From: Actinomycetota bacterium
GTDB lineage: Bacteria; Actinomycetota; Thermoleophilia; Gaiellales; Gaiellaceae
Direction: 5' to 3'
NCBI GenBank assembly: GCA_003134505.1
Contig: PLBK01000027.1
Location: 11,053-50,240, forward strand
DNA length: 39,188 nt
Shown: piece after piece, positions 7,041 to 10,737 of the stretch
Layout: every line of letters begins with the position of its first letter
Numbering within the stretch: position 1 is the stretch's first letter
Notes under the pieces: model-generated
Told to the model about the DNA's origin: nothing
Database searches by the model: none
The model's input: the letters and a program-made list of their open reading frames with translations, nothing else
Program-made: the position numbers and the translations under genes

Positions 7041-8066
7041 CTAGCCGGCGCGGCGCAGATCACCGGGCGCGTGCTCCGCGATCCATACGTCGATCGTCTT
7101 CCACCACTCGTAGAGCCAGGCGATCAGCGCTTCCCGCTCGTGCGGGACCTTCGCCGCCGGGACGCGCCAGTAGCGCGCCTTGATCGGCCGGGTGAGCGGC
7201 AGGCGGTGGTGCAGGTACTTGAGCGAGCCGAGCTCCTCGAGCGCGGTGTGCGCGACGAGCACGACGTCGGCCTCGGGTGCCGCGAGGATGGCCGCGAGCG
7301 GGCCCTTGTGGCGCGGGGGGAGCACGCGATCCATCGTCTCGGCGTGCGCGGCGGCTGCGTGATGGCCCTTCCGGCGGAGGTGCGCGATCGCGCGTAGCCG
7401 CAGCGGCTCGGTGAAGTCCCGGCCCTCGGGGTAGAGGACGAACGCGTCGTGGTCGTCGAGGCCGGTCGCGAGCGTGGCGATCGCTCGCACGAAGCCGTCG
7501 CTGTGCTCGGGGTCGTGCTCGATGAACAGGCTCGGCAGCCGGTGGGCGACGATGTCGATGACGGGATCCCACTGGAGGAACCCCAGCATGACCACGCGGG
7601 GCCGCCGCCCGAACCTGAGCATCAGCGTGCGGACCATCATCAGCGAGTTCCCGGGGCCGGCATGGCGGCCGAAGACGAGCAGCGCTCCGGGGCGGGGCTC
7701 GGGCGGATCGACGATCTCGATCCTCAGGCCGAGCAGCCAGGTCGCCGCCGCCGAGACGCAGCGGAGCCAGCCGCGCAGGACCGCGTAGTGCGCCGAGCGG
7801 AGCGCCCGGGTGCGCACGAGCAGGCCGAAGCCCGACACGAGCCAGAGCACGAGCAGCGCCACGATCATCGCTGCCTCGGTCGCGAGGTAGACGAGGCCGA
7901 ACGCGACCAGCCGGGTCGACCCGAGGCTTCTCCGGCGCTGCACCGCGTCGACGACGAGCGCGCCCGCGAGCAGCAGCGGCGAGAGCACGGTCAGGCCCAG
8001 ACAGCCGAGCACGACGAGCGGGGCGAGGACGAGGCGGCGGAGGATGCGCGGCGGTGGCCGGATCAT
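7041..8066 (-). CDS. Membrane 1-acyl-glycerol-3-phosphate acyltransferase-like protein
   Basis: PlsC-family acyltransferase (341 aa), predicted to move an acyl group onto a lysophospholipid or similar acceptor at the membrane. The first ~115 residues hold three hydrophobic segments (RRLVLAPLVVLGCLGLTV, AMIVALLVLWLVSGFGLLV and a shorter third). The catalytic block is GRHAGPGNS: His135 and, four residues on, Asn140 where the HX4D motif has Asp. The second block, LYPEGRD at 211-217, corresponds to FPEGTR. The Asp-to-Asn change is unusual and may impair or alter catalysis. The ATG overlaps the stop of the upstream patatin gene by 4 nt, so a lipase and an acyltransferase are produced together. Confidence 0.88.
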   Translation of the reverse strand: MIRPPPRILRRLVLAPLVVLGCLGLTVLSPLLLAGALVVDAVQRRRSLGSTRLVAFGLVYLATEAAMIVALLVLWLVSGFGLLVRTRALRSAHYAVLRGWLRCVSAAATWLLGLRIEIVDPPEPRPGALLVFGRHAGPGNSLMMVRTLMLRFGRRPRVVMLGFLQWDPVIDIVAHRLPSLFIEHDPEHSDGFVRAIATLATGLDDHDAFVLYPEGRDFTEPLRLRAIAHLRRKGHHAAAAHAETMDRVLPPRHKGPLAAILAAPEADVVLVAHTALEELGSLKYLHHRLPLTRPIKARYWRVPAAKVPHEREALIAWLYEWWKTIDVWIAEHAPGDLRRAG

Positions 8067-8905
8067 GCTCGCGCGTCCAGGTACTCGGAGGTCGCCGCGT
8101 ACGCGTACGCGATCCTGCGATCGACGGCCCGGAAGTCGCGGAAGCGGAGCTGCGAAAGGTCGTTGAAGCGCGGGGGAGCCGGGTCGCCGGTCGGGAGCAC
8201 GTGCACCGTGACGCCGGCGGGCACGGCGGCGAGCTCGCGCACGAAGCGGTGCCGGCGCGAGACTTCGAACGCGACCAAGCCGACGTCCCGCATGCGCTTC
8301 GGCACGCTGAGCGGCTGGTCGATCCGTCCGGCGTGCATCACGTAGATCTCGTCGGCGCCGAGGAAGACCGCCCGGTCGATCGGGATGCTGTTCACGATGC
8401 CGCCGTCGATGAAGTGCTCGCCGCCGATCTCCACGGGCGGCAGGATCCCCGGCACCGCGGAGGAGGCCAGGATCGCGTCGACGAGCGGCCCGGTCGAGAA
8501 CCAGTGCTCGGCGAAGCGCTCGATCGACGCCGCGACGCACTGGAACGGCACGGCGAGCTCTTCGAACGTCTCGGCGCCGAGCAGGCGGCCCGCGAGGCGG
8601 CGGAGCGGCTCGTTCGAGCGGACGTGCGTGCGCGTGCGGAGCAGGCTGGCCGCGTCCGTGAGCCAGGATCTACCCAGCACGCCCAGCTTGTCGAGCTCGC
8701 CCCAGGCCGCTTCGAGCTTCTCGACCGCGGCGATGGTCGGCTCGGCCGCCACCATCGCTCCGTGAAGGGCGCCCACCGAGGTGCCGACGACGAGGTCGGG
8801 GTGGATCTGGCGCTGGAGGAGCGCGTGCAGCATGCCGACCTCGGCGGCGCCCGCGTGCCCGCCGCCTCCGAGGACGAACGCCACCGTGCACTTCGGGTCG
8901 GGCAC
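8063..8905 (-). CDS. Patatin-like phospholipase
   Basis: Serine acyl hydrolase of the patatin/RssA type (280 aa) with a Ser-Asp dyad. The oxyanion-hole motif is GGGGHAG at residues 13-19, the nucleophile elbow is GTSVG with Ser43, and the catalytic Asp167 sits in FIDGG. Family members hydrolyse phospholipids or lysophospholipids; no signal peptide is present, so it acts inside the cell. It starts at a GTG (8905), 6 nt after a TAGCCT -10-like box at 8917-8912, so the mRNA is probably leaderless. It overlaps the PlsC-like gene by 4 nt, consistent with a deacylation/reacylation pair for membrane lipid remodelling. Confidence 0.93.
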   Translation of the reverse strand: MPDPKCTVAFVLGGGGHAGAAEVGMLHALLQRQIHPDLVVGTSVGALHGAMVAAEPTIAAVEKLEAAWGELDKLGVLGRSWLTDAASLLRTRTHVRSNEPLRRLAGRLLGAETFEELAVPFQCVAASIERFAEHWFSTGPLVDAILASSAVPGILPPVEIGGEHFIDGGIVNSIPIDRAVFLGADEIYVMHAGRIDQPLSVPKRMRDVGLVAFEVSRRHRFVRELAAVPAGVTVHVLPTGDPAPPRFNDLSQLRFRDFRAVDRRIAYAYAATSEYLDARA

Positions 8906-10059: not shown

Positions 10060-10737
10060 GTGAGCCGGGCGATCGACCGCGAGCGTGTCCAGGAGCTCCT
10101 GCGCGATGGCGCGCAGCTCGTCGAGGTGCTGGGGCACGAGGAGTACGCGGACGAGCACCTGCCCGGTGCGATCGACCTCCCGCTCAAGGAGCTCGATGCC
10201 GCCGCGGCCTCGCGTCTCGACCAGGCCAGGCCGGTGATCGTCTACTGCTACGACTACCAGTGAGACCTCTCGCCACGGGCCGCGGCGCGGCTCGCCGGAC
10301 TCGGGTTCGAGCAGGTGTTCGACTACGTCGCCGGCAAGGCCGACTGGGGCTCGGCCGGCTTGCCGCTCGAAGGGGACGATCCGAGCGCGAACCGCGCGGG
10401 CGCCCATGCCCGCCGCGATGTGCCCACGTGCGGTCCGGCGGAGCGCCTGCAGGACGTCCGCGTGCGGATCGGCGCCTGGGAGGCGTGCTTCGTCGTCGAC
10501 GCGGACGGCGTCGTGCTCGGCCGGCTCGGCCGCGCGGCGCTGCGGCGGGAGGACGATATCTCGGCCGAAGAGGCGATGAGCAACGGGCCGAGCACGATCA
10601 GGCCGAGCGCGCGGCTCGAGCGGGTGGTCGAGCGGATGCGGGCGCAGGAGCTGACGAGCCTGCCCGTCACGACCTCCGACGGCCGGCTGGTCGGGCTGCT
10701 GCTCCTGGCAGACGCGGAGGCGGCGCTCGAAGGCTAG
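10060..10737 (+). CDS. Rhodanese-CBS protein with in-frame UGA (possible selenoprotein)
   Basis: One gene interrupted by a single in-frame TGA at codon 68 (10261-10263); read through it encodes 225 residues. The rhodanese half (1-100) has [25 protein letters not shown], the strand [10 protein letters not shown] with Cys63 at the catalytic position, then the UGA and [15 protein letters not shown], with [11 protein letters not shown] closing the domain. Homologues I recall have Cys at the UGA position (YQCDLSPRAA-like), so UGA stands for Cys, giving C-x4-U/C in the active-site loop. The second half (about 120-225) is a CBS pair. Codon use and frame stay intact after the UGA. It is a selenocysteine codon, a fresh nonsense mutation (TGC to TGA) or a base error. 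Convergent with yghZ. Confidence 0.75.
10276..10294 (+). promoter_or_regulatory. SECIS-like hairpin after the UGA
   Basis: CGGGCCGC (10276-10283) pairs with GCGGCTCG (10287-10294): 8 bp including one G-U, with loop GGC at 10284-10286. The loop begins 20 nt after the UGA and its first two bases are G. This fits the published bacterial SECIS consensus as I recall it (spacing 16-37 nt, short loop, G in the first two positions). GC-rich DNA folds easily, so chance is possible. Confidence 0.35.

Follow-up and report, generated by a model that had tools for sequence, protein, structure and literature searches.

A rhodanese–CBS-pair gene with a conserved in-frame UGA, very probably a selenocysteine codon

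The window, by which we mean the whole stretch of DNA analysed (39,188 nucleotides), holds at 10060–10737 a frame that is interrupted by a single TGA. When this frame was re-read, it comprised 226 codons (TAG stop included) with the TGA at codon 68, exactly as in an earlier reading made from the sequence alone (hereafter, the sequence-only reading). The features considered here are the following:

10060–10737, plus strand: gene for a predicted selenoprotein of 225 residues (U68 counted) that joins a rhodanese domain to a CBS pair, starting with GTG and ending with TAG (from the open frame, Pfam domains and homologue alignment)
10081–10353, plus strand: rhodanese domain, residues 8–98 (PF00581, 43.8 bits against a cut-off of 22.2)
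10246–10248, plus strand: TGC codon of Cys63, the active-site-loop Cys of the rhodanese domain (a Cys codon in 30 of 31 homologues; TGA in the remaining one, L057)
10261–10263, plus strand: in-frame TGA, codon 68, predicted selenocysteine (Sec), forming C-x4-U with Cys63 (TGA in 28 of 31 full-length homologues)
10276–10294, plus strand: candidate bSECIS hairpin with an 8 bp stem closed by the loop GGC (present at this place in every one of the 28 UGA homologues)
10381–10725, plus strand: tandem CBS module, approximately residues 108–222 (PF00571 at 170–219, 43.1 bits; CBS-pair profile and predicted fold matches)
8063–8905, minus strand: patatin-like phospholipase gene

The gene is flanked by a signal peptidase S26 gene on one side and an aldo/keto reductase gene on the other, both on the minus strand. 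Rhodanese and CBS similarity had been described as running unbroken past the TGA, and this holds: the rhodanese match spans the codon, the CBS match follows downstream, and both exceed their Pfam cut-offs. The N-terminal half is thus a member of PF00581 that retains the loop Cys63, which we take to be the catalytic Cys of the rhodanese family. The C-terminal half belongs with the CBS pairs (Bateman modules), as indicated by one Pfam repeat together with CBS-pair structure profiles matching at approximately 107–222, and Foldseek matches the AlphaFold model to CBS pairs. This model has a mean pLDDT of 83.8 and a pTM of 0.55, values at which the domain folds are usable and the arrangement of the domains is not.

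Homologues were collected from 151 relatives, from 399 genomes of the class and, in a single scan, from named genomes. This yielded 32 distinct full-length places including the window, of which 31 were examined and one (G342:C2) was left out. Also left out of the counts were L182 (the same as L058), L059 (from the genome of L035), all rhodanese-only matches, including a copy in L122, and CBS-only matches in G085, G075 and G312. The last of these stops at a contig edge, and no rhodanese half was found near the other two in the stretches examined (L120 and L121); the G085 and G075 genomes both possess selA. The locus L058 is identical over 690 nt to one in G321, a genome of the same class. Identity to the window protein ranges from 43 to 66% among 13 aligned homologues.

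At codon 68, 28 of the 31 full-length homologues (window included) have TGA, and the other three have a Cys codon, either TGC or TGT: L060, labelled Acidimicrobiia, L190 (G315) and L199 (G290). An in-frame UGA at a position occupied by Cys in homologues is what one looks for in a bacterial selenoprotein. The statement in the sequence-only reading that homologues have Cys here is correct for these three and for several single-domain rhodaneses; most full-length homologues have UGA. The C-x4-U that Cys63 and codon 68 had been said to form in the rhodanese loop is present in 27 of 31, with C-x4-C in three. In the one remaining gene, L057 (from a record labelled Acidobacteria), Cys63 is also a TGA, giving U-x4-U with TGAs at L057:2836-2838 and 2851-2853. 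On a tree of these genes three UGA/Cys changes are required, in a topology that bootstrap leaves unsettled (14 of 28 inner branches open), and three labels placed on the tree at random need three changes equally often.

These counts bear directly on the possibility that the UGA is a real stop, whether through a base misread in sequencing, a nonsense mutation of recent date or decay into a pseudogene. Since the same TGA is found in 28 of 31 homologues, a recent mutation or a base error, both of which the sequence-only reading had kept as alternatives, is excluded. The 12 aligned UGA homologues share 47–66% identity with the window protein, before the codon and after it alike, and in the window gene the GC content at third codon positions (GC3) is 0.93 upstream and 0.94 downstream of it, which likewise argues against a stop. 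In its favour one can cite the failure to find selA, selB or selC in the metagenome-assembled genome (MAG) to which the window belongs. Taken together, we regard a genuine stop as very improbable.

The hairpin that follows the UGA, CGGGCCGC-GGC-GCGGCUCG at 10276–10294, has the geometry reported for it earlier: 12 nt separate the UGA from the stem and 20 nt separate it from the loop, and the stem has 8 bp. Published bSECIS rules (given in the available part of PMC13188914) ask for a loop of 3–9 nt, a G in its first two positions, a spacing of 16–37 nt and an MFE of at most −7.5. The window hairpin, with a 3-nt loop starting with G, an 8 bp stem and 20 nt spacing, satisfies these, and its MFE is −17.9 kcal/mol over 40 nt, the MFE rule being applied to the window alone. 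Judged from the window sequence by itself, significance had to be rejected: synonymous codon shuffling gives an equally long helix with P ~0.11 (z −0.25), and folding gives a z-score of −0.88, 36 of 200 shuffled sequences being equally stable. The hairpin is significant because it is conserved among relatives, the single sequence lying within chance.

All 28 UGA genes keep the hairpin at the same place with 6–8 of its 8 pairs formed, whereas the three Cys genes retain 5, 5 and 4 of 8. Codon choice follows the same division. Ala75 is encoded by GCG in 28 of 28 UGA genes versus GCC in all three Cys genes, and Arg77 by CGG in 27 of 28 (the exception being a CAG) versus CGC in all three. Among 13 UGA sequences, codon homozygosity is 0.92 in the five hairpin columns, versus 0.37 expected, and 0.61 in 35 other columns, versus 0.55 expected. 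The product of the fixed-position probabilities is approximately 10^-19.7 for the same 13 sequences, a figure that assumes independent sequences, which these are not. When the pairing is slid by 1–3 columns, the proportion of paired cells falls from 92.4% to 22–53%. No compensatory change was seen in the hairpin among the aligned relatives, because its pairs hardly vary.

The MAG that contains the window (G000) comprises 2.81 Mb in 56 contigs and is 81.7% complete. It encodes selD (337 bits) and, on the same contig (C22), a formate dehydrogenase FdhA (744 bits) at G000:C22:120343-122367 (L167), which has a downstream hairpin and one in-frame TGA in the motif CEAT-U-HAP, that is, at its U-H-x-P site. 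The sequence-only reading had looked to the sel genes of the genome, and its expectation stood for selD only: in this 82% complete MAG there was no match for selA, nothing over the cut-off for selB, and no selC. The two places that match the selB model most strongly are, judging by their motifs, presumably an IF-2-like GTPase and EF-Tu, and the sole tRNA-Sec hit above the gathering score proved to be a tRNA-Ser. The EF-Tu-like gene appears to be split over two frames (L005, L006; G000:C19 ~50702-51812), perhaps by an assembly error.

In a related carrier, G029, selA, selB and tRNA-Sec lie in one block after a MoaD–MoaE fusion and a LOG-type (lysine-decarboxylase-like) gene. A query of these two neighbours finds no match in the window's MAG. 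As the neighbours of the block are missing too, the pattern fits the loss of one unassembled stretch from the assembly, without proving it, and a single unassembled block is the simplest reading of the missing selA, selB and selC. They may instead have been truly lost.

Nine further genomes of the same family carry the gene, and at least part of the selA, selB and selC set was found in eight of them. Seven have selA, five have selB above the cut-off (a sixth, G017, only a C-terminal piece), and five have a tRNA-Sec with anticodon tca on which Rfam and ARAGORN agree (G024, G029, G035, G072 and G073). All three occur together in G029, G072 and G073, and none in G022, which is 56% complete. Of the three carriers with a Cys codon, G154 has neither selB above the cut-off nor tRNA-Sec. 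Several candidates were discarded along the way. Weak selB-model hits in G000, G017, G024, G035 and G154 appear from their motifs to be EF-Tu or an IF-2-like GTPase, tRNA-Sec hits of 47–51 bits in G000, G017, G022, G032, G075 and G154 are tRNA-Ser according to ARAGORN, a tRNA-Sec piece at a contig end in G032 was left uncounted when a later check did not confirm it, and an ARAGORN tRNA-Ser within selD (L023:10712-10805) was taken as spurious. We also rejected co-occurrence with selA as a test: it is found in 7 of 10 carriers (own genome included) versus 95 of the 151 relatives searched (87 above the cut-off; carriers included), so that a gene this common in relatives generally does not discriminate. 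Two of the carriers, G029 (L169) and G073 (L170), also possess a second kind of UGA-containing FdhA with the motif CNRT-U-HAP; in both, the first part of the FdhA model matches elsewhere on the respective contig.

One should also consider that a tRNA with a UCA anticodon, or leaky readthrough, places a standard residue such as Cys or Trp at the UGA. Cys is the residue that alternates with UGA, and selC was not detected in the window's MAG, both of which would suit such recoding. Against it, when genes were chosen by GC3 in the window and in five further stretches of the genome, 31 of the 71 ended in TGA, which also led us to reject a genome-wide reassignment of UGA. Standard-residue recoding is further opposed by the tie between the hairpin and the UGA and its degradation alongside Cys codons, by the UGA-containing FdhA and selD of the same genome, and by the tRNA-Sec (tca) of five of the nine same-family carriers. 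We consider it very improbable.

Because codon and hairpin are kept together in relatives, and those with Cys have a decayed hairpin, the UGA at codon 68 is very probably selenocysteine; from sequence comparison we put the probability of insertion at roughly 0.93. The candidate raised in the sequence-only reading has thereby gained the support of a UGA that alternates only with Cys, a hairpin that follows the UGA among 28 genes, and FdhA and selD in the same genome.

If the established bacterial mode of Sec decoding applies, SelB and Sec-tRNA would bind the hairpin and Sec would be inserted at the UGA. Cys63, the canonical rhodanese nucleophile, would then take up sulfane sulfur to form a persulfide, which Sec68, five residues further on in the active-site loop, would attack, so that sulfide is freed and Cys63 and Sec68 end up joined as a selenenyl-sulfide. 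This bond might be reduced by a partner with a thioredoxin fold, possibly the DF-family protein that neighbours the gene in many relatives, and an adenosine nucleotide bound to the C-terminal CBS pair could adjust the activity of the enzyme. We offer this chemistry, a Cys63 persulfide reduced by Sec68 with a partner and CBS control, as a tentative proposal that we would place a little short of even odds.

The neighbourhood in relatives is relevant both to this partner and to an alternative chemistry. A small thioredoxin-like gene resembling DF lies near the rhodanese gene in 13 of 31 loci (the window and 30 others, with flanks often of only ~1.5 kb), and an ArsR gene at ≥58% identity in 10 of 31, all of them among these 13, two loci having supplied the queries. 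DF-like genes beside or near the rhodanese gene, often together with ArsR, include L111:4618-4941, L058:4278-4655 and those of 11 other loci. Both small proteins tested score over the cut-off of NF049942 (DF family (seleno)protein), and the one ArsR tested does so for NF033788 (metalloregulator ArsR). The 11 DF-like proteins that a motif search picked up all carry Cys, and none of these 11 has a UGA. Neither an ArsR nor a DF gene was found around the rhodanese–CBS gene within the window. PMC12013277 reports DF itself as a selenoprotein newly recognized in a single organism and lacking TGA-containing homologues elsewhere, and PMC13188914 lists it as a hypothetical selenoprotein.

It is possible, with the odds rather against it, that Sec is inserted and serves another chemistry, Sec68 handling selenium (for delivery to SelD), a metal or an organometal. 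The recurrence nearby of the metalloregulator and the DF-family (seleno)protein would fit such a role, as would the several families from organometal and mercury biochemistry among the selenoproteins of Table 1 in PMC13188914, as far as its available part goes; the retention of loop Cys63 in 30 of 31 homologues speaks against it. More speculatively, and in our view unlikely as a whole, these genes may encode a widely distributed lineage of selenoenzymes gated by nucleotides, found mostly in Thermoleophilia, in which Sec68 would reduce persulfide or selenium/metal adducts on Cys63, DF-family proteins would supply electrons from an ArsR-controlled operon, the CBS pair would couple activity to energy charge, and the pair in L057 would now be U-x4-U.

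A 2026 inventory counts 119 selenoprotein families or subfamilies, and the part of it available (PMC13188914) lists in Table 1 five rhodanese forms with the motifs UxxS, UxxG, CxU, UxxG and UxxxxU; among these forms, neither a CBS module nor C-x4-U is described there. Forms 1, 2 and 4 (UxxS, UxxG and UxxG) are likewise predicted Sec rhodaneses, set apart from ours by their listed motif. Form 3, the rhodanese-related (seleno)protein NF041203, also has a Cys followed by a nearby Sec, but two residues on (CxU) rather than five, and its model gives the window protein 19.9 bits against a cut-off of 115. Form 5, TsoB (NF045694), is by name a rhodanese/DsbD fusion with the motif UxxxxU, whereas the window protein is a CBS-pair fusion with C-x4-U; its model matches weakly at residues 20–116, with 28.1 bits against a cut-off of 805. 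The U-x4-U of L057 is the motif listed for TsoB in the available part of that inventory. A rhodanese of solved structure that Foldseek matches at 27–28% identity, BH2092 of Bacillus halodurans (PDB 3nhv, 3o3w), has C-x4-C at the aligned positions, but is a chain of 144 residues without a CBS match and with Cys where the window protein has its predicted Sec.

No NCBIfam model scores the window protein over its cut-off. The term 'CBS' is absent from the main text of PMC13188914 and of PMC9312934, PMC12013277 does not mention rhodanese, and the available parts of PMC1088965, PMC2398784, PMC1794560 and PMC5029168 refer to selenoproteins of the rhodanese or sulfurtransferase kind, or to the related references, and not to CBS. 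Literature searches combining selenocysteine, rhodanese and CBS domain returned no such protein by title, an unlisted annotation being possible, and those on Thermoleophilia, the probable class, returned no title on Sec proteins. The best reading is that the predicted Sec rhodanese with C-x4-U and a CBS pair forms a subfamily missing from that inventory, to the extent available, and from what NCBIfam recognizes at its cut-offs.

Such a subfamily would add a domain arrangement, rhodanese joined to a CBS pair, and a Sec spacing, C-x4-U, both of which are unlisted in the available part of the PMC13188914 inventory, and the recurring ArsR–DF–rhodanese cluster supplies a genomic setting for DF. The UGA/Cys changes, with their matching hairpin decay, offer a natural experiment that bears on the requirements of a bSECIS. 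Researchers who search for these genes should keep in mind that gene callers treating UGA as a stop would end them at codon 67, and database copies may therefore be truncated.

Related UGA-containing rhodaneses were seen in two other settings. Three single-domain rhodaneses of family f7, L042 (G144), L047 (G119) and L048 (G129), have TGA at the equivalent loop position and a different hairpin; L047, the one tested, matches no NCBIfam model above the cut-off. The rhodanese-only copy in L122 (from ~9542 onward; G032:C158) possesses the UGA and the same hairpin as the full-length gene, which is also present in that genome.
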